From NCBI RefSeq assembly GCF_001548675.1, contig NZ_CP010834.1:2019501-2083500 (forward strand): a DNA stretch of 64,000 nucleotides, written 5' to 3'. Position numbers and translations under genes: made by a program. This DNA comes from Methanobrevibacter sp. YE315 (GTDB taxonomy: Archaea > Methanobacteriota > Methanobacteria > Methanobacteriales > Methanobacteriaceae). This document shows positions 20,774-63,098 of the stretch, one piece after another. How positions within the stretch are numbered: position 1 is the first letter of the stretch; each line of letters begins with the position of its first letter. The notes beneath the pieces were generated by a model. It was given only the letters and a program-made list of their open reading frames with translations. It searched no databases and was not told where the DNA came from.

Positions 20774-20801
20774 AAAAAAGGGAGTTATAAAAATAACTCC
20801 C
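20774..20801 (-). terminator. Terminator at the end of the ehb operon
   Basis: Reading leftward, the perfect 9-bp stem GGGAGTTAT/ATAACTCCC (20780-20801, loop of four A/T) is followed by six T residues. This is the intrinsic terminator pattern for the ehb transcript. It lies 20 bases after the ehbQ stop and can also stop the convergent cas4-like gene. Confidence 0.75.
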
Positions 20802-20821
20802 CTATATGTCCATAAATATGA

Positions 20822-21481
20822 TTAAAACTTAATATTGCCACCTAAACGCTCAATACTAAATGCAGCAGTATCTGCTATTGACATTACAGCTAAAACACCA
20901 GCTTGAATCGGATCAGTGATGATTAAATCAGCATGCTGTGTGACACTACCCGGCATATTCAGTGAAATTACAATCAAATTACTTTCATCCTTTACCTTCT
21001 TAACGGCTTTAGTTATCTCACCGCCCATAAGGGATCCTGCAAGAACTAATGCTCTAACACGAGGCAATCTTGAAATAGCTTCAATAGCTTCCGCTAGATT
21101 TTTTTCACCTACCAATGGAATAGTATCGATACTTATACGTTCCCCACGTATATTATGCCTATCTGCTTCTGTAATAGCACCCATAGCTACTTGAGCCACT
21201 TGAGCTCCACCACCAACGATGATTATACGTTTTCCATATATGTCCAACTGTGAACCATGCAATTCAACAGATTCTACTTCAGGAATGCTTTTTAAATCTG
21301 ACACTAACTTATCAATATCTTTAACATGCTCCAATTCTAAATTGATGGAACCCATATTATTATTTTCAACGAAAAGATTGACATAGCTAATATTAGCACC
21401 ATGGTCCGTGATAACATCAGTAATGTCATCCAATACGCCTTTTCTTTCTTGAGATTTAATAGTTAATGTATAATCACTCAT
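20822..21481 (-). CDS. ehbQ: Ehb operon protein Q (ACT domain, DUF5612)
   Basis: Last gene of the hydrogenase operon. The 219 residues consist of an N-terminal ACT-like domain ([20 protein letters not shown]) and a larger domain with [18 protein letters not shown], a Gly-rich nucleotide-binding-like loop. ACT domains bind amino acids or other small ligands, so it may be regulatory rather than part of the membrane complex. It overlaps ehbP by 8 bases. Naming follows its position. Confidence 0.75.
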
Positions 21482-45166: not shown

Positions 45167-45314
45167 TGGGGTCACAGGGATTTGAACCCCGATCCTGGGA
45201 TTTCTCTTGCCTCAGTACTCCAATTGATCATCACAACGGATACTGTTCAGTTACGCGTATATTTCTTCAAAGACAACTGGAGTCCCAGATGATGCCAGGT
45301 TACACCATAACCCC
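45167..45314 (-). tRNA. tRNA-Trp (CCA) with a 75-base intron
   Basis: Exon 1 is 45277-45314 and exon 2 is 45167-45201, 73 bases in total. Acceptor GGGGTTA pairs with TGACCCC, the T arm is CGGGG-TTCAAAT-CCCTG, and the anticodon stem is TGGGA/TCCCA. The anticodon is at 45278-45280. The intron (45202-45276) lies between positions 37 and 38, the usual archaeal site. CCA is not encoded. The exact splice points could shift by a base. Confidence 0.93.
45202..45276 (-). ncRNA. C/D box guide RNA within the tRNA-Trp intron
   Basis: The intron carries GTGATGA (C or C' box, 45228-45234) and CTGA (D box, 45212-45215), with a second CTGA at 45247-45250. The 12 bases between C and D are complementary to the tRNA around its anticodon. 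By the D+5 rule the guide targets C34, matching the known cis or trans methylation of archaeal pre-tRNA-Trp. The other half-guide, ending ACGCGTAA before the second CTGA, does not match the tRNA. Confidence 0.75.
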
Positions 45315-56253: not shown

Positions 56254-58494
56254 ATGAAAGCTTTAAAGATTTTAACTCAAGGAATAGTCCAGGGTGTAGG
56301 ATTTAGACCATATGTTTATAGATTAGCCTGTGATTTAAACCTAAAAGGATATGTCAGAAACCTTGGAAATGTAGTTGAAATCATTATCGAAGGTGAAAAT
56401 ACTGAATTGTTTACTGAAAGGCTTCCAAAAGAGCTGCCTCCAATAGCCAAAATCAATTCCATGGAAGTTGAAGCTATTGAAAGCAGCAATTATGCTGATT
56501 TTGATATAATTGAAAGTGACAGTTCCTACTCAGGAATTAGTGTAATTCCGCCAGACATAGCAATCTGCGACAAATGTCTTGAAGAAATCAGAAATCCAAA
56601 TGACAGGCGTTACAAATATGCATTTAATGCGTGTACCGATTGCGGACCTAGATTTACTGTAATTGAAAGCGTCCCCTATGACCGGATTCGAACATCAATG
56701 GATGAGTTTCCGCTATGCGATGAATGTCTTGTTGAATACAAGGACCCTTTGAACAGACGCTACCATGGAGAAGCCATTTGCTGCAGCGAATGCGGACCTC
56801 AAATGGAAATCTATAAAGATGAAAATAGAATAGACACTGAAAATCCTATAAAACTGGGTGCTGAAACATTAAAAGAAGGAAAAATATTGGCCATCAAGGG
56901 AATTGGCGGAACCCATTTGGTTGTTGATGCATATAATGACAGGGCAATCAAAGAACTTAGAAAACGTTTGAATAGACCAAATCAGGCTTTTGCTGTAATG
57001 TGCAAGGATTTGGAAAGTCTTCAAAACTATGCTCAATTGTCAGAAAAAGAAATCAAAACAATCACCTCAAACAAAAGGCCGATTGTCATTTTAAAGAAAA
57101 AGGATAATTATCCATTCCCGGATAGTCTATCTCCAGGACTTCACAATATTGGGGTTATGCTGCCATATTCACCAATGCATTACCTGCTTTTTGATGAAGG
57201 AGACATAGACACCTATGTAATGACTTCGGCAAACATTCCCGGTGAACCAATGATGATTACAAATGAAGAAATAATCAATGGCATCAATGACTATTCGCTG
57301 GTTCATAACCGTCAGATTCTAAATCGATGCGATGATTCCGTAATCAGGTTTAGAAACAATGAACTGTCATTCATCAGAAGGTCAAGAGGCTATACTCCCG
57401 AACCGTATACAATAAATTACGATGTAAATGACCTGAATGTGCTTGCATTGGGTCCGGAACTTGATGTAACCTTTTCCATCGCAAAAGACAACATCGTATA
57501 TCCATCACAGCACATCGGAAATACAAATAAGCCAAAAACATTGAAGTTTTTACGGGAAGCAATCAAGAACATGGAAAGAATTACAAAAATTGATGAATTT
57601 GATGTGATTGCATGTGATATGCACCCTCACTTTTTCACAACAAGACTCGCCTATGAACTGGCTGAAAAATATGGCGCTGAAGTAATGCCAGTACAACACC
57701 ATCATGCGCACTCCATTGCTCTTGCAAATGACAGTTCAATCGATGAGATGATTGTTATTGCAGCTGATGGAGTGGGATATGGAAGTGATGGAACTAGTTG
57801 GGGAGGAGAAATCCTCTATACTGATGTTAAAAACTTCGAAAGAATGGGGCATTTGGAAAGCCAGCTAATGCCTGGAGGAGACGTTGCAACAAGATATCCT
57901 GCAAGAATGCTTGCAAGCATCCTGAAAGATGAAGACTTGATTAAAAACTATGCGGATTACTTCAAATATGGTGAAATTGAAATAAAAAATATCTTCAAAC
58001 AGATTGAAGCCGGAATAAATGTTGGGAAAACAACAAGTACTGGCAGAGTTCTTGATTCGATGGCTGTTGCTTTGGAAATCTGTCATGAAAGAACATATGA
58101 AGGGGAATGTTCCATGAAGCTTGAATCTTCCGCTTATTATTCAACTAAACAGTTGGAACTTCCAGTGATTGTTGAAAATGATGTATTGAACACCACAGAA
58201 ATATTACGGGAAGTTGTAAAGCTTTATCAAAATGGTGAAAAGAAATCGGATGTTGCTGCTGCAGGTCAAATTGCTGTGGCAAGTGGTTTAAGTGAACTTG
58301 CCTTAAGAGCGGCCGATAAAAAAGGATTATCTAACATAGGGGCAACAGGCGGAGTATTCTACAACGAAGCCATTACGGATACCGTTAAGAATTATATCGA
58401 AAATGCTGGATTTAACTTTATACAGCACAAAAACACCTGCGCTGGAGACGGATCAGTATCTCTTGGACAGGCTATTGTAGTAAAAAAAAAGTGA
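56254..58494 (+). CDS. hypF: Carbamoyltransferase HypF
   Basis: Makes the CN ligands of [NiFe] hydrogenases with HypE. The 746 residues contain an acylphosphatase domain (QGIVQGVGFRPYVYRLA, residues 9-25), two zinc-finger pairs (CDKCLEE..CTDCGP and CDECLVE..CSECGP), a YrdC-like domain, and a Kae1-like carbamoyltransferase domain with VQHHHAHSIAL and ADGVGYGSDGTSWGG. Full length. Its target in this window is EhbN. Confidence 0.96.
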   Translation: MKALKILTQGIVQGVGFRPYVYRLACDLNLKGYVRNLGNVVEIIIEGENTELFTERLPKELPPIAKINSMEVEAIESSNYADFDIIESDSSYSGISVIPPDIAICDKCLEEIRNPNDRRYKYAFNACTDCGPRFTVIESVPYDRIRTSMDEFPLCDECLVEYKDPLNRRYHGEAICCSECGPQMEIYKDENRIDTENPIKLGAETLKEGKILAIKGIGGTHLVVDAYNDRAIKELRKRLNRPNQAFAVMCKDLESLQNYAQLSEKEIKTITSNKRPIVILKKKDNYPFPDSLSPGLHNIGVMLPYSPMHYLLFDEGDIDTYVMTSANIPGEPMMITNEEIINGINDYSLVHNRQILNRCDDSVIRFRNNELSFIRRSRGYTPEPYTINYDVNDLNVLALGPELDVTFSIAKDNIVYPSQHIGNTNKPKTLKFLREAIKNMERITKIDEFDVIACDMHPHFFTTRLAYELAEKYGAEVMPVQHHHAHSIALANDSSIDEMIVIAADGVGYGSDGTSWGGEILYTDVKNFERMGHLESQLMPGGDVATRYPARMLASILKDEDLIKNYADYFKYGEIEIKNIFKQIEAGINVGKTTSTGRVLDSMAVALEICHERTYEGECSMKLESSAYYSTKQLELPVIVENDVLNTTEILREVVKLYQNGEKKSDVAAAGQIAVASGLSELALRAADKKGLSNIGATGGVFYNEAITDTVKNYIENAGFNFIQHKNTCAGDGSVSLGQAIVVKKK

Positions 58495-58529: not shown

Positions 58530-59105
58530 CTATCTATTTTTAAGAGTTCTTTCAAGAATATATTCTGCTCTTTCTAAAAGATTTCCATACAATCTTATTT
58601 GATTTTTCAACTCATCAATTGCTTCAAGTTGACCATCATCAATTCTTTTTTCAATATCTAAAAGTTTTGACCATTCATCCCCTGATGGTAATTGCAATGT
58701 ATTGAGCATGTCGTCTGTGAACTGAACATCAAAATTATTCCTGTTAATAGTAATATGGATATTCACTTCATTCTGCAAATCATAGTATTTACGTGGACGA
58801 CCTCTTAAAATCTTTTTATAAGAAGAATTTAGAATACCTATATCTTCCATAGCACGTAAATGAGCAATAATTGCTTTTTGACCAATATCCAGCTCATTTG
58901 AAATTTCACTTACAAACATAGGTTCTTCCCTTAAAAGATTTATTATATCTCTTCTAGTCTTACAACCCATTACATCAAGGATATCTTCCACATCAATGTC
59001 ATCAGCAGGGTTATTATAATCAGTACGAAGTTCTATATGTCCCTTAGGCATATTAACATTTCTGTGTGGTTTTTCATTTTTCTCAATGTCGTTTGTATCA
59101 TTCAT
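58530..59105 (-). CDS. Winged-helix regulator, candidate heat-shock repressor (HSR1-like)
   Basis: A 191-residue ArsR-type DNA-binding protein. An acidic 40-residue N-terminus precedes the winged helix: MGCKTRRDIINLLREEPMFV, EISNELDIGQKAIIAHLRAM and the basic wing KILRGRPRKYYDL. The C-terminal region (about 145-190) is helical and may dimerise. It is divergent from grpE-dnaK, with two TAAC-N5-GTTA sites between. In Archaeoglobus, the comparable regulator HSR1 binds CTAAC-N5-GTTAG. The role is therefore inferred as autoregulated repressor of the chaperone genes. Confidence 0.8.
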   Translation of the reverse strand: MNDTNDIEKNEKPHRNVNMPKGHIELRTDYNNPADDIDVEDILDVMGCKTRRDIINLLREEPMFVSEISNELDIGQKAIIAHLRAMEDIGILNSSYKKILRGRPRKYYDLQNEVNIHITINRNNFDVQFTDDMLNTLQLPSGDEWSKLLDIEKRIDDGQLEAIDELKNQIRLYGNLLERAEYILERTLKNR

Positions 59106-59133
59106 GATTATACATTATATCGAAACCTTTATA

Positions 59134-59153
59134 TAACTTTTTGTTACTATAAT
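59134..59153. promoter_or_regulatory. Heat-shock operator-like site 1 (regulator side)
   Basis: TAACTTTTTGTTAC has the form TAAC-N5-GTTA. It touches a TATA-like TTATATAAAG (59128-59137, reading leftward) about 30 bases before the regulator's ATG, so binding would block that promoter. It is a direct repeat of site 2, starting 35 bases away. Confidence 0.6.
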
Positions 59154-59168
59154 AATGTAGGAGAAAGA

Positions 59169-59188
59169 TAACTTTTGGTTACTTTAAT
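59169..59188. promoter_or_regulatory. Heat-shock operator-like site 2 (grpE side)
   Basis: TAACTTTTGGTTAC again matches TAAC-N5-GTTA. Twenty aligned bases differ from site 1 at only two or three positions. It overlaps a TATA-like TTTAATAT (59183-59190) that would start grpE transcription near 59212-59216. Confidence 0.6.
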
Positions 59189-59210
59189 ATTCGGTTAAGA
59201 AAAACTTAAA

Positions 59211-59343
59211 GTAATAACTCTTAATTGATGAACCATTTTCCTATATGTCCATAAATTCCCAAAAACCTATATTAAACACTCAAAAGTTTTGATTCTCTGC
59301 CGAGAGTTATTACAAAAGTTTTTCAAAAAACCTAAAAAAGGTG
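59211..59343 (+). promoter_or_regulatory. Structured 5' leader of grpE-dnaK
   Basis: GTAATAACTCT (59211-59221) is perfectly complementary to 59303-59313, closing an 81-base interval that starts at the predicted transcript start. Further on, ACCT (59330-59333) pairs with AGGT (59339-59342), which is part of the ribosome-binding site AGGTG. Such a weak hairpin over the site could act as a temperature-sensitive switch. Both are seen by eye and not energy-calculated. Confidence 0.35.
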
Positions 59344-59348
59344 CAAAT

Positions 59349-59900
59349 ATGACTGATGAAAATAAGAGCGAAACTGAAGTTGAAACTCAAGAAATTCAAG
59401 AAAAGTATGATGAACTTCTCGAAGAGTTAGCTCTAAAAGATGAAGAATTAGCAAAAGTTAAAGAAGATCTTGAAAAACAAGAAAGTGAAACTCAAGAATA
59501 CATTTCATTATCACAAAGACTTCAAGCAGATTTCGAAAATTTCAAAAAAATAACCGATAAAAGAAACAAGGAACTTGTCAAATTTGCTAATGAAAATCTT
59601 ATAAAAGAGTTTTTAGATTGTTATGAAGACTTTGGCAGGGCTTTAGAAATCGAAAATGATGAAGATTTAAGAGAAGGTGTAGAACTCATCTATAATAAAT
59701 TCAAAGATGTTTTAACCAAAGAAGGTATTGAAGAAATTCCTGCAAAAGGAGAAAAATTTGATTTGAACAAACATGAAGCATTAATGGTTCAGGAATCAGA
59801 TGATGTTGAAAACGGGTATATTATAGAAGAGTTGATGAAAGGTTACATGTACAAAGATAAAGTCCTTAAATACTCAAAAGTTATAGTTTGTAAAAAATAA
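59349..59900 (+). CDS. grpE: Nucleotide exchange factor GrpE
   Basis: Exchange factor for DnaK. The 183 residues start at 59349 (AGGTG five bases before), not at the in-frame upstream start at 59289. A long N-terminal coiled coil (about 10-60) is followed by LQADFENFKKITDKR and the C-terminal beta domain FDLNKHEALMVQES, GYIIEELMKGYMYKDKVLKYSKVIV. First gene of the chaperone locus. Confidence 0.95.
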   Translation: MTDENKSETEVETQEIQEKYDELLEELALKDEELAKVKEDLEKQESETQEYISLSQRLQADFENFKKITDKRNKELVKFANENLIKEFLDCYEDFGRALEIENDEDLREGVELIYNKFKDVLTKEGIEEIPAKGEKFDLNKHEALMVQESDDVENGYIIEELMKGYMYKDKVLKYSKVIVCKK

Positions 59901-59939: not shown

Positions 59940-61817
59940 ATGTCTGATACTAAAAAAGAAAAAATTATTGGAATTGACTTAGGAACAAGTAACTCCGCAG
60001 CATCCGTACTTGTCGGAGGTAAACCAACCACAATTCCATCTGCAGAAGGAGCAAGCCAATATGGTAAATCCTTCCCAAGTTACGTTGCATTTACCGACGA
60101 TGGTCAAATGTTAGTAGGTGAACCAGCAAGAAGACAAGCAGTAACCAACCCAGAAAACACTATCAGTGCAATCAAAAGAAGCATGGGTACCAATCACAAA
60201 GTTACTGTAAACGGAAAACAATATTCCCCACAAGAAATTTCCGCATTTATCTTACAAAAAATTAAAAAAGATGCTGAAAGCTTCTTAGGTGAACCAATTG
60301 AAAAAGCAGTAATCACCGTGCCTGCTTACTTTGACGACAACCAAAGGACTGCAACCAAAGACGCAGGAACCATTGCTGGACTTGATGTTGTAAGACTTGT
60401 AAACGAACCAACCGCAGCAAGCCTCGCATATGGTCTTGATAAAGCTGATGAAGACGACATGAACATTATGGTTTACGATTTAGGTGGAGGTACCTTAGAT
60501 GTAACCATTATGGAATTCGGTGGTGGAGTATTTGAAGTAAGATCTACCAGTGGAGACACCCAACTTGGTGGTACCGATATGGACAACGTATTAATCAAAT
60601 ACTTGGCTGATGAATTCAAAGCAAAAGAAGGCGTAGATTTAATGGATAACGATCAAGCAGTTCAAAGATTAAGAGAAGCTGCTGAAAAAGCAAAAATCGA
60701 ATTATCCACAACCACAACAACCGAAGTTAACTTACCATTTATCGCAATGGGCAGTGATGGAACCCCTAAAAACTTAATCCAAACACTTACCAGGGCAAAA
60801 TTAGAAGAATTAGTTGATTCAATTGTAGAAAAATCCGGTAAACCAATGCAACAAGCATTAGATGATGCTAAAATGAGTAAATCTGAAATTGACAAAATCA
60901 TCTTAGTCGGTGGACCTACCAGAATGCCAATCGTACAACAATTCGTTGAAAAATTCATAGGAAAACCTGTTGAACGTGGTATCGACCCAATGGAATGTGT
61001 ATCCATGGGTGCTGCTATTCAAGGAGGAGTATTAGCTGGTGAAATTAAAGACATCGTTCTTTTAGATGTAACTCCATTATCATTAGGTATCGAAACATTA
61101 GGTGGAGTATCAACTACCTTAATCGAAAGAAACACTACTATCCCTACCAAGAAAAGCCAAATATTCTCCACAGCTGCAGATAACCAACCATCTGTAGACA
61201 TTAATGTTTTACAAGGGGAAAGAAAAATGGCTGCAGACAACACCTCATTAGGTCGTTTCCAACTTGTAGGTATCCCACCTGCTCCTAGAGGCGTTCCACA
61301 AATTGAAGTAACCTTCGATATTGACGCTAACGGTATTATTAATGTAACTGCTAAAGATAAAGGAACCGGTAAAGAACAAGCAATTACCATTACTTCCTCA
61401 ACTAAGTTATCTGATGAAGAGATTGAACAAAAAATCAAAGAAGCAGAAATGAATGCTGAAGCAGATGCAAAAAGACAAGAAGAAATAGAAATCAGAAACA
61501 ACGCAGACTCCTTAATTTACACTTCAGAAAAAACCTTAGATGAACTCAAAGATCAAGTATCTGAAGATGAAAAAACAAAAGTCGAAGGACTTGTAGCTGA
61601 ATTAAGAGAACTTATAGCTGGCGATGATGTTGCTGCCATTAAAGAAAAGTCTGATGAATTATCTAACGTAATTCAAGAGATTGGTGCTAAAATTTACCAA
61701 CAAGCACAAGCTGAAGCTCAAGCTCAACAACAAGCTGGAGCTGACCCAAATGCTGGTGCACAAGACAACAACGATGATGACACAATTGATGCAGACTATG
61801 AAGTAAAAGACGATTAG
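59940..61817 (+). CDS. dnaK: Chaperone DnaK (Hsp70)
   Basis: ATP-driven chaperone. The 625 residues begin at the ATG at 59940, preceded by AGGTGAT; an in-frame GTG lies three codons upstream. Signatures [38 protein letters not shown] and [19 protein letters not shown] are present, then the substrate-binding [16 protein letters not shown] and the lid. Bacterial-type DnaK is thought to have entered archaea by transfer. It has the same strand as grpE, 39 bases after. Confidence 0.97.
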
Positions 61818-61955: not shown

Positions 61956-63098
61956 ATGGCAGACAAGCGAGATTATTATGAAGTTCTTGGAGTAGATAAA
62001 TCTGCTGATGAAAAGACAATTAAAAAAGCTTATCGTAACTTAGCTAGAAAATACCATCCAGATGTTTGTGATGAACCAGATGCGGAAGAAAAGTTCAAAG
62101 AGGTTAGTGAAGCTTATGCCGTCTTGTCTGATGATGAAAAACGTCAAAGATACGATAAATTTGGTCATGCCGGAATGGATGGATTCACTGCAGAAGACTT
62201 CTATCAAAACGTAAACTTTGAAGACATATTCCAAGGATTCGATATAGGAAACATCTTTGATATATTCGGTTTTGGTGGAGGAAGCCGTAGCAGAGGCAGA
62301 ACCGGGCCTCAAAGAGGTTCAGACATTTATACTGAAGTTCCAATTACATTGGAAGAAGCATTTAACGGATGTGAAAAAGAAATTAAAATCACAAGAAGCG
62401 AGCTATGCCCTGTATGTAAAGGATCCAAATCAAAACCGGGCGTCGAACCTGAAACATGTAGGACATGTGGAGGTACTGGCCAAATCAAAGAAGTCAGCAA
62501 TACATTCTTAGGCCAAATGGTTAATGTAAGAGCATGTAGAGAATGTGGCGGTACCGGTAAAATCATTACTGATCCATGTGATAACTGTCATGGCAGAGGT
62601 AGTGTAAGAAAAACAAAAACCATTAAGATTGAAATTCCGGAAGGAGTTAATGAAGGCAACCACCTAAGAGTTTCAGGTGAAGGAAACTGTGGAGATGCGG
62701 CTGGACTTGAAGGTGATTTAATTGTTACAGTCCATATCAAAAAACACAAGAGGTTCGTGCGTGAAGGAGATCATTTGTATTTAGATCAGCAAATTAGTTT
62801 CCCTCAAGCAGCGCTAGGAGACTTAATCAGTATTCCAACCATTGAAGGAAAAGAGGTTGAATTTAAAATTGCTCCTGGAACACAAAGCGAAACTGTTTAC
62901 AAATTAAGAGGACAAGGTATGAACTCTGTTAGACATAACGGCAGAGGAAATATGTATGTAACCGTTAAAGTTGTCGTTCCTAAAAAATTAAATACAAAAC
63001 AAAAAGATTTACTTAAACAGTTCGCTGAAATCAGCGGCGATGAAATCAAACATGTTGAAAAAGGACTTTTCGACAGGGTAAAAGATGCGATGAAGTAG
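61956..63098 (+). CDS. dnaJ: Chaperone DnaJ (Hsp40)
   Basis: Co-chaperone of 380 residues: J domain with the HPD in RNLARKYHPDVCDE, a Gly/Phe region, four zinc-finger repeats CPVCKGSK, CRTCGGTG, CRECGGTG and CDNCHGRG, and the C-terminal domain. In the first repeat the final G is replaced by K. A GAAT-rich spacer of 138 bases with two T-rich hairpin-like stretches separates it from dnaK, so it may have its own promoter. AAGGTGAAT precedes the ATG. Confidence 0.96.
   Translation: MADKRDYYEVLGVDKSADEKTIKKAYRNLARKYHPDVCDEPDAEEKFKEVSEAYAVLSDDEKRQRYDKFGHAGMDGFTAEDFYQNVNFEDIFQGFDIGNIFDIFGFGGGSRSRGRTGPQRGSDIYTEVPITLEEAFNGCEKEIKITRSELCPVCKGSKSKPGVEPETCRTCGGTGQIKEVSNTFLGQMVNVRACRECGGTGKIITDPCDNCHGRGSVRKTKTIKIEIPEGVNEGNHLRVSGEGNCGDAAGLEGDLIVTVHIKKHKRFVREGDHLYLDQQISFPQAALGDLISIPTIEGKEVEFKIAPGTQSETVYKLRGQGMNSVRHNGRGNMYVTVKVVVPKKLNTKQKDLLKQFAEISGDEIKHVEKGLFDRVKDAMK

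Follow-up and report, generated by a model that had tools for sequence, protein, structure and literature searches.

A Phr/HSR1-Family Repressor Predicted to Control Itself and the Bacterial-Type grpE-dnaK-dnaJ Operon of Methanobrevibacter through Two Conserved Sites

Introduction

In Methanobrevibacter sp. YE315, a repressor of the Phr/HSR1 family very probably controls both its own gene and the divergent chaperone operon grpE-dnaK-dnaJ through two conserved palindromic sites. We put the probability of this reading at roughly 0.83; binding, repression, release by heat and the assignment of the promoters are predicted from sequence comparison. The locus lies in a window of 64,000 nucleotides, which is the whole stretch of DNA that was analysed, and comprises the following genes:

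56254–58494, + strand: hypF, convergent neighbour of the regulator gene, conserved even where dnaK is absent
58530–59105, − strand: Phr/HSR1-family (arCOG01684-type) ArsR winged-helix regulator, 191 aa, assigned from Pfam HTH_5, NCBIfam, PDB and Foldseek matches
59349–59900, + strand: grpE (Pfam GrpE, 4.8e-40)
59940–61817, + strand: dnaK (HSP70), an open reading frame with a PF00012 match at the corresponding place in genome G000
61956–63098, + strand: dnaJ, from its open reading frame and sequence

The bacterial-type chaperone genes that an earlier, sequence-only reading had placed beside the regulator are thus where it put them, grpE by its Pfam match and dnaK and dnaJ as open reading frames. 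Elsewhere in the window, a tRNA match of 148 nt (45167–45314), probably an intron-bearing tRNA gene, sits in a cluster of six tRNAs at 45–46 kb.

Paired Operator Sites in a Probably Shared Promoter

The intergenic region between the regulator gene and grpE contains these elements:

59121–59135, + strand: BRE (CGAAA) and TATA box (TTTATATA), read from the sequence, with a presumed promoter role
59134–59153, + strand: operator op1, core TAACTTTTTGTTA at 59134–59146, kept in nearly every locus of the genus (g1) and in other genera and families
59157 (± a few bp), + strand: predicted grpE transcription start, placed by its spacing from the TATA box; the short leader of family f3 leaves no alternative
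59169–59188, + strand: operator op2, core TAACTTTTGGTTA at 59169–59181, 35 bp from op1

Together with their 3' flanks, the two cores form the direct repeats TAACTTTTTGTTACTATAAT and TAACTTTTGGTTACTTTAAT, which agree at 18 of 20 positions and are spaced 35 bp apart, just as the sequence-only reading had described them. Its match to the HSR1 motif, reported in a review as CTAAC-N5-GTTAG (PMC9133787), also holds for the core: TAAC-N5-GTTA is present in both sites, and the outer bases (ATAAC..GTTAC) depart from the full HSR1 operator. A palindrome with eight fixed bases is common genome-wide, so that single sites are weak evidence; the bare 13-mer occurs three times in the window against 1.1 expected, and 31 times in the 2.27-Mb genome. 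In its extended form TAACYTTTKGTWACTWTAA, the only exact matches in the genome are op1 and op2. The pair is real and lies far above chance.

Conservation bears this out. At least two TWAC-N5-GTWA sites lie between regulator and grpE in 54 of the 55 loci of the genus, compared with 0.3% of Markov shuffles, and op1 and op2 are spaced by 35 in 46 of the loci and by 34–37 in the rest. Paired sites are kept between regulator and grpE-dnaK across the Methanobacteriales, with a spacing that is nearly always 33–39 bp. Other genera and families f2 and f3 retain the two operators, with close variants that include TAACCTTTTGTAACTATAA and TAACCTTTTGTAACTTTAA, and a Methanosphaera-like group (g57; L171, L172 and L174) has up to four copies between the two genes. 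The search of orthologous promoters in the order, by which the sequence-only reading had proposed to be judged, therefore came out in its favour: the motif is there, and its position and spacing are conserved. Of 78 high-quality genomes in the family, 77 encode the regulator, which also occurs in the sister families f2–f4, nearly always beside or near grpE-dnaK.

In one locus (L034, genome G021) the divergent promoters have been split, so that a single operator and a separate TATA box stand at the regulator gene and two operators at grpE. This arrangement suggests that the operator pair belongs to grpE and that a single site is enough for the regulator. Separately, insertions of a few kilobases part the regulator and op1 from the grpE leader in L033 (genome G014) and in genome G046; in the latter, the regulator frame also contains a stop codon.

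The first operator overlaps the BRE-TATA element (CGAAA..TTTATATA), which is conserved across families, through the order, as CGAAA-N2-TTTATATAA. Read on the minus strand, the TATA box is TTATATAAA and lies about 26 bp upstream of the regulator ATG (59105). No obvious Shine-Dalgarno sequence is found at the regulator start, and the regulator transcript is likely to be leaderless and to arise from this same element. The short leaders of family f3, in which only about 20 nt separate op2 from the grpE ATG, leave no place for op2 except downstream of the transcription start. Given a shared TATA element, op1 would reach into the TATA box region of either gene, and op2 would block grpE only. Of the idea that each operator overlaps one of two divergent TATA boxes, the part concerning op1 stands, with the TATA box being shared; op2 has no second TATA box and falls inside the predicted grpE transcript.

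Identity of the Regulator

The regulator carries an ArsR-type helix-turn-helix (Pfam HTH_5, 9.5e-14). Its best NCBIfam match is Phr_regulator (NF053602; 1e-24, 87.2 bits, under the curated cutoff of 320 bits), a model on which the Thermococcal protein L069 scores 342 bits. Pyrococcus Phr (2p4w) is both its best PDB match by sequence (3.8e-21) and the best Foldseek match (7e-10) of its structure model, which is modest overall (mean pLDDT 71.7) and confident over the HTH. Identity over the HTH is 44% to Thermococcal Phr and 36% (97 aa) to the presumed HSR1 of Archaeoglobus fulgidus (L112), taken as such from its coordinate, the downstream cdc48 and a neighbouring TFB. In the phylogenetic tree, the proteins form three separate clades (support 94/97 for Methanobacteria, 97/96 for Thermococci and 99/99 for Archaeoglobi), and the regulator does not group with the Archaeoglobi proteins. 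Sequence comparison thus supports its placement as the Methanobacteriales branch of the Phr/HSR1 family, a third clade that is closer to Phr than to HSR1. Both characterized proteins belong to arCOG01684, which has been inferred to be ancestral in archaea (PMC5852551).

The earlier description of the neighbour as a winged-helix protein of compatible type is accordingly confirmed by sequence and fold, and the label "HSR1-type" has to be narrowed. Family and operator core agree with it, but Phr is the closer relative, and the regulator falls into a clade of its own. The comparison of structure models proposed alongside that label points the same way, since a best fold match to Phr 2p4w favours the Phr/HSR1 family and speaks against HSR1 as the closest relative.

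The operator, too, is shared more widely. At the genes that encode family members, the palindrome stands immediately downstream of the TATA box, in Archaeoglobi perfect in all 29 parsed loci and in Thermococci perfect in 17 of 29 and with at most one mismatch in all 29. A perfect match at own-gene promoters is expected in 0.2–0.4% of shuffles. CTAAC-N5-GTTAG or its core stands upstream of all Archaeoglobi HSR1-family genes examined. Its presence at the promoters of both Phr and HSR1 genes indicates an operator common to the whole family rather than one specific to HSR1. The Methanobrevibacter protein shows two traits of the family, an ArsR-type winged helix akin to those of Phr and HSR1 and the cognate TAAC-N5-GTTA palindrome at its own core promoter. 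A more distant regulator (L073, genome G087) heads a regulator-hsp20-cdc48 operon that is without the palindrome.

Probable Recruitment of the Chaperone Operon

hypF and the regulator gene are convergent neighbours in genomes ranging from that of the window to the Methanothermus-like G072, where no full DnaK was found. As the regulator lies beside hypF even without DnaK, grpE-dnaK probably joined a resident archaeal repressor. No HSP70 match was obtained in the Archaeoglobi and Thermococci tested, and the DnaK of Methanobacteriales has been attributed to horizontal transfer (PMC3564930). The simplest reading of this gene order is that grpE-dnaK-dnaJ probably came to adjoin the resident repressor; the alternative would be an earlier arrival of grpE-dnaK followed by its loss in G072. 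The proposal that an archaeal repressor was recruited to chaperones of bacterial origin hence gains support from the hypF synteny and from the absence of DnaK in relatives that bear Phr or HSR1.

Candidate Regulon and a Rival Circuit

With 31 matches in the genome, the bare 8-base palindrome is useless for defining a regulon, and a motif matrix was used instead. It was built without genome G221, which belongs to another genus, and scanned over 1.6 Mb of that genome. Four of the eight best matches fall in the genome's own regulator/grpE locus, one before the proteasome beta gene (psmB), two before cdc48 and one, at 982796, inside an ABC-transporter gene; the last was set aside as chance. The best non-self promoter matches are therefore psmB and cdc48, with proteasome alpha (psmA) ranking lower.

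Upstream of cdc48, the 11 genomes of the genus that are closest have GTTACAAAAAGTAAC or a close variant near position −73, with the form CTTACAAAAAGTTAA in the window genome. The g57 group has two TTACAAAAAGTAA-type sites there and families f2–f4 have TATTATAGTWAC..TTTACTAAAA; part of the genus has no such site. The window genome shows sites with two or three mismatches before cdc48, PAN, psmA and hsp20, of which those before PAN, psmA and hsp20, seen in this genome alone, are suggestive only as operators. No operator-like site was found at hsp20 of G221, and thermosome genes were discarded as targets because their promoters are without the motif. Both cdc48 and hsp20 are known targets of Phr/HSR1 (PMC10653856, PMC5852551, PMC10746257), the two regulators having a small heat-shock protein and an AAA+ ATPase as common targets (PMC10653856, PMC10746257). 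The proteasome of P. furiosus is not heat-induced (PMC10746257), which counts against the proteasome genes. Looking for the motif at other heat-shock genes, as had been recommended, thus yielded operator-like sites before further protein-quality-control genes, namely cdc48 and those of the proteasome.

These distant matches also bear on a different account of the promoter, in which the sites belong to another regulator, or to an autoregulated circuit independent of stress, such as that of a metal- or redox-sensing ArsR protein, and grpE-dnaK is controlled by adjacency only. An ArsR-type HTH would suit such a circuit. However, the best match of the protein by sequence and fold is a heat-shock regulator, its cognate motif is common to the Phr and HSR1 genes, and matches recur before cdc48 and proteasome genes, so we regard this account as very improbable and retain the Phr/HSR1-family repressor.

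A Structured Leader RNA before grpE

The stretch separating op2 from the grpE start contains a leader whose parts, together with a distant candidate partner, are as follows:

59182–59324, + strand: structured RNA leader of the grpE-dnaK mRNA, 143 nt (covariance model, stem covariation, G.U versus A.C asymmetry)
59182–59196, + strand: pairing P, 5' strand (CTTTAATATTCGGTT) (shuffle-controlled duplex test; pair types by position)
59199–59207 and 59211–59221, + strand: stem S, 5' strands (duplex test, covariation)
59232–59257, + strand: near-invariant loop ACCATTTTCCTATATGTCCATAAATT (family genome comparison; exact-match search)
59264–59276, + strand: pairing P, 3' strand (AACCTATATTAAA), within the S loop
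59303–59313 and 59316–59324, + strand: stem S, 3' strands (duplex test, covariation)
20779–20822, − strand: candidate, unproven antisense partner (17-nt exact loop complement and terminator-like hairpin)

A covariance model (R1) detects the leader in 63 g1 genomes and in one genome of a sister genus, at a single place per genome in nearly all of them and always at the grpE locus where this was checked. Over 50 sequences, 96.2% of the cells of stem S are paired and 14 of its 20 pairs show double changes (59 cells), a covariation that none of 500 shuffles matched and that lies far above slid controls. The underlying alignment was fitted to the structure; the same stems emerge from a duplex test that uses no model, among them completely replaced ones (AATAGTCGTTGT/ACAACGACTATT). 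G.U pairs outnumber A.C pairs by 25 to 5, which points to the + strand as the RNA. In the duplex test, pairing P exceeds its shuffled controls in almost every sequence. Analysis of pair types by position shows changed pairs at the 3' positions of P; as P pairs into the loop of S, the predicted topology is that of a pseudoknot.

The loop (ACCATTTTCCTATATRTCCATAAATT) is almost invariant, being present with at most three mismatches, mostly exactly, in 64 of 139 family genomes. Among 84,980 species genomes, 43 exact matches were found, all in Methanobrevibacter. An upstream open reading frame was rejected as the cause of this conservation because the ATG of the loop is ATA in some genomes, and a box C/D RNA because divergent leaders do not retain the TGATGA that precedes the loop. 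Two loci of genus g51 (L163 and L166) have a divergent leader hairpin with the loop TGTCCTATATATTCATATTT, below detection by the covariance model. No family of Rfam 15 reaches its gathering score on the leader, and, judged by these comparisons, it is a previously undescribed structured RNA.

Its position directly before a chaperone gene could point to an RNA thermometer masking the ribosome-binding site of grpE at low temperature, and in many g1 genomes a small ACCU/AGGU hairpin can indeed pair the Shine-Dalgarno sequence. This hairpin is, however, not kept in all members, the covarying stem lies upstream of the Shine-Dalgarno sequence, and the strongest constraint falls on an unpaired 25-nt loop for which a thermometer has no need. 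Folded without the pseudoknot, the predicted opening of the Shine-Dalgarno sequence is nearly flat, rising from 0.18 to 0.23 over 25–50 °C. Folding thus gives no support to a plain thermometer, which we consider improbable. An invariant unpaired loop instead suggests recognition in trans, and there is a little under an even chance that the leader is a binding platform whose loop an RNA-binding protein or small RNA recognizes, thereby adjusting how the dnaK operon mRNA is translated or degraded. In favour of this are the near-invariance of the loop in 64 genomes, between covarying helices, and the single further exact copy of its 17-mer in the window (20801–20817). On the minus strand this copy is a 17-nt antisense to the loop, extended to 22 pairs with G.U; it sits between convergent genes, in the 3' region of the gene at 20822–21481, beside the terminator-like hairpin. 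The candidate duplex is predicted at −28.9 kcal/mol versus −7.0 for shuffles, and by our own estimate an exact 17-mer match in 64 kb has a chance of about 1e-4 to 1e-5. On the other side, the antisense match may be chance or a copied fragment. No complement of the loop occurs on + strand transcripts of the window. Thus, 20779–20822 is a possible small RNA partner of the grpE leader, to be taken only as a lead. Such a binding platform would complement the repressor and concerns the leader only.

Proposed Mechanism

At normal temperature, a dimer of the regulator would bind the palindrome TAAC-N5-GTTA. Bound at op1, it would cover the BRE/TATA region that serves grpE-dnaK-dnaJ; the palindromic op1/TATA region very probably serves the leaderless regulator transcript as well. 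A dimer at op2, just downstream of the grpE start, would hinder recruitment of RNA polymerase, as Phr does. Heat or misfolded protein would release the repressor, both transcripts would rise, and autorepression would bring the level back. The regulator probably also represses cdc48, proteasome genes and hsp20, and in Methanobrevibacter the structured mRNA leader probably adds a second, post-transcriptional layer. The fullest version can be advanced only tentatively and is rather unlikely to hold in every part: the Methanobrevibacter dnaK operon would be under two layers, an ancient Phr/HSR1-family repressor that took over the acquired bacterial operon, and a pseudoknotted leader with a loop read in trans by a small RNA or protein, possibly from 20779–20822.

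Comparison with Known Systems

To our knowledge, only two archaeal heat-shock regulators have been characterized, both in hyperthermophiles without DnaK. With the present case, mesophilic methanogens of gut and rumen join the known range of the Phr/HSR1 family, of its operator and of part of its regulon, and the locus would show concretely how a chaperone operon imported from bacteria became part of an archaeal stress circuit. The regulator adds a new branch to a known family, and its target is of a new kind; the predicted proteostasis regulon comprises the DnaK system, Cdc48 and the proteasome, and the leader adds an unclassified structured RNA as a possible second layer of control.

Phr of Pyrococcus and Thermococcus (2p4w; NF053602) shares with the regulator an ArsR-type winged helix followed by C-terminal helices, an autoregulatory palindrome beside the TATA box, and cdc48/VAT and hsp20 among its targets, which are candidate ones here. 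In contrast, the identity of 44% extends over the winged helix only, the score stays under the NCBIfam cutoff for Phr and the clade is separate; the Methanobacteriales locus, moreover, has paired operators and an adjacent bacterial-type dnaK operon as target. With HSR1, the regulator has in common the operator core TAAC-N5-GTTA, a homologous HTH (36% over 97 aa) and a cdc48 target, again a candidate one. HSR1, however, is encoded by the first gene of an operon that includes cdc48, its C-terminal region is longer, and it lacks the RGRPRKYY wing sequence common to Phr and this regulator. The leader resembles the structured leaders of Rfam in being a covarying 5' leader of a stress operon, but it matches no Rfam 15 family and is restricted to Methanobrevibacter and close kin. 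In bacteria, the repressor HrcA and its inverted-repeat operator CIRCE control grpE-dnaK and the repressor itself; there, protein family and operator are unrelated to those described here, where the repressor is archaeal.
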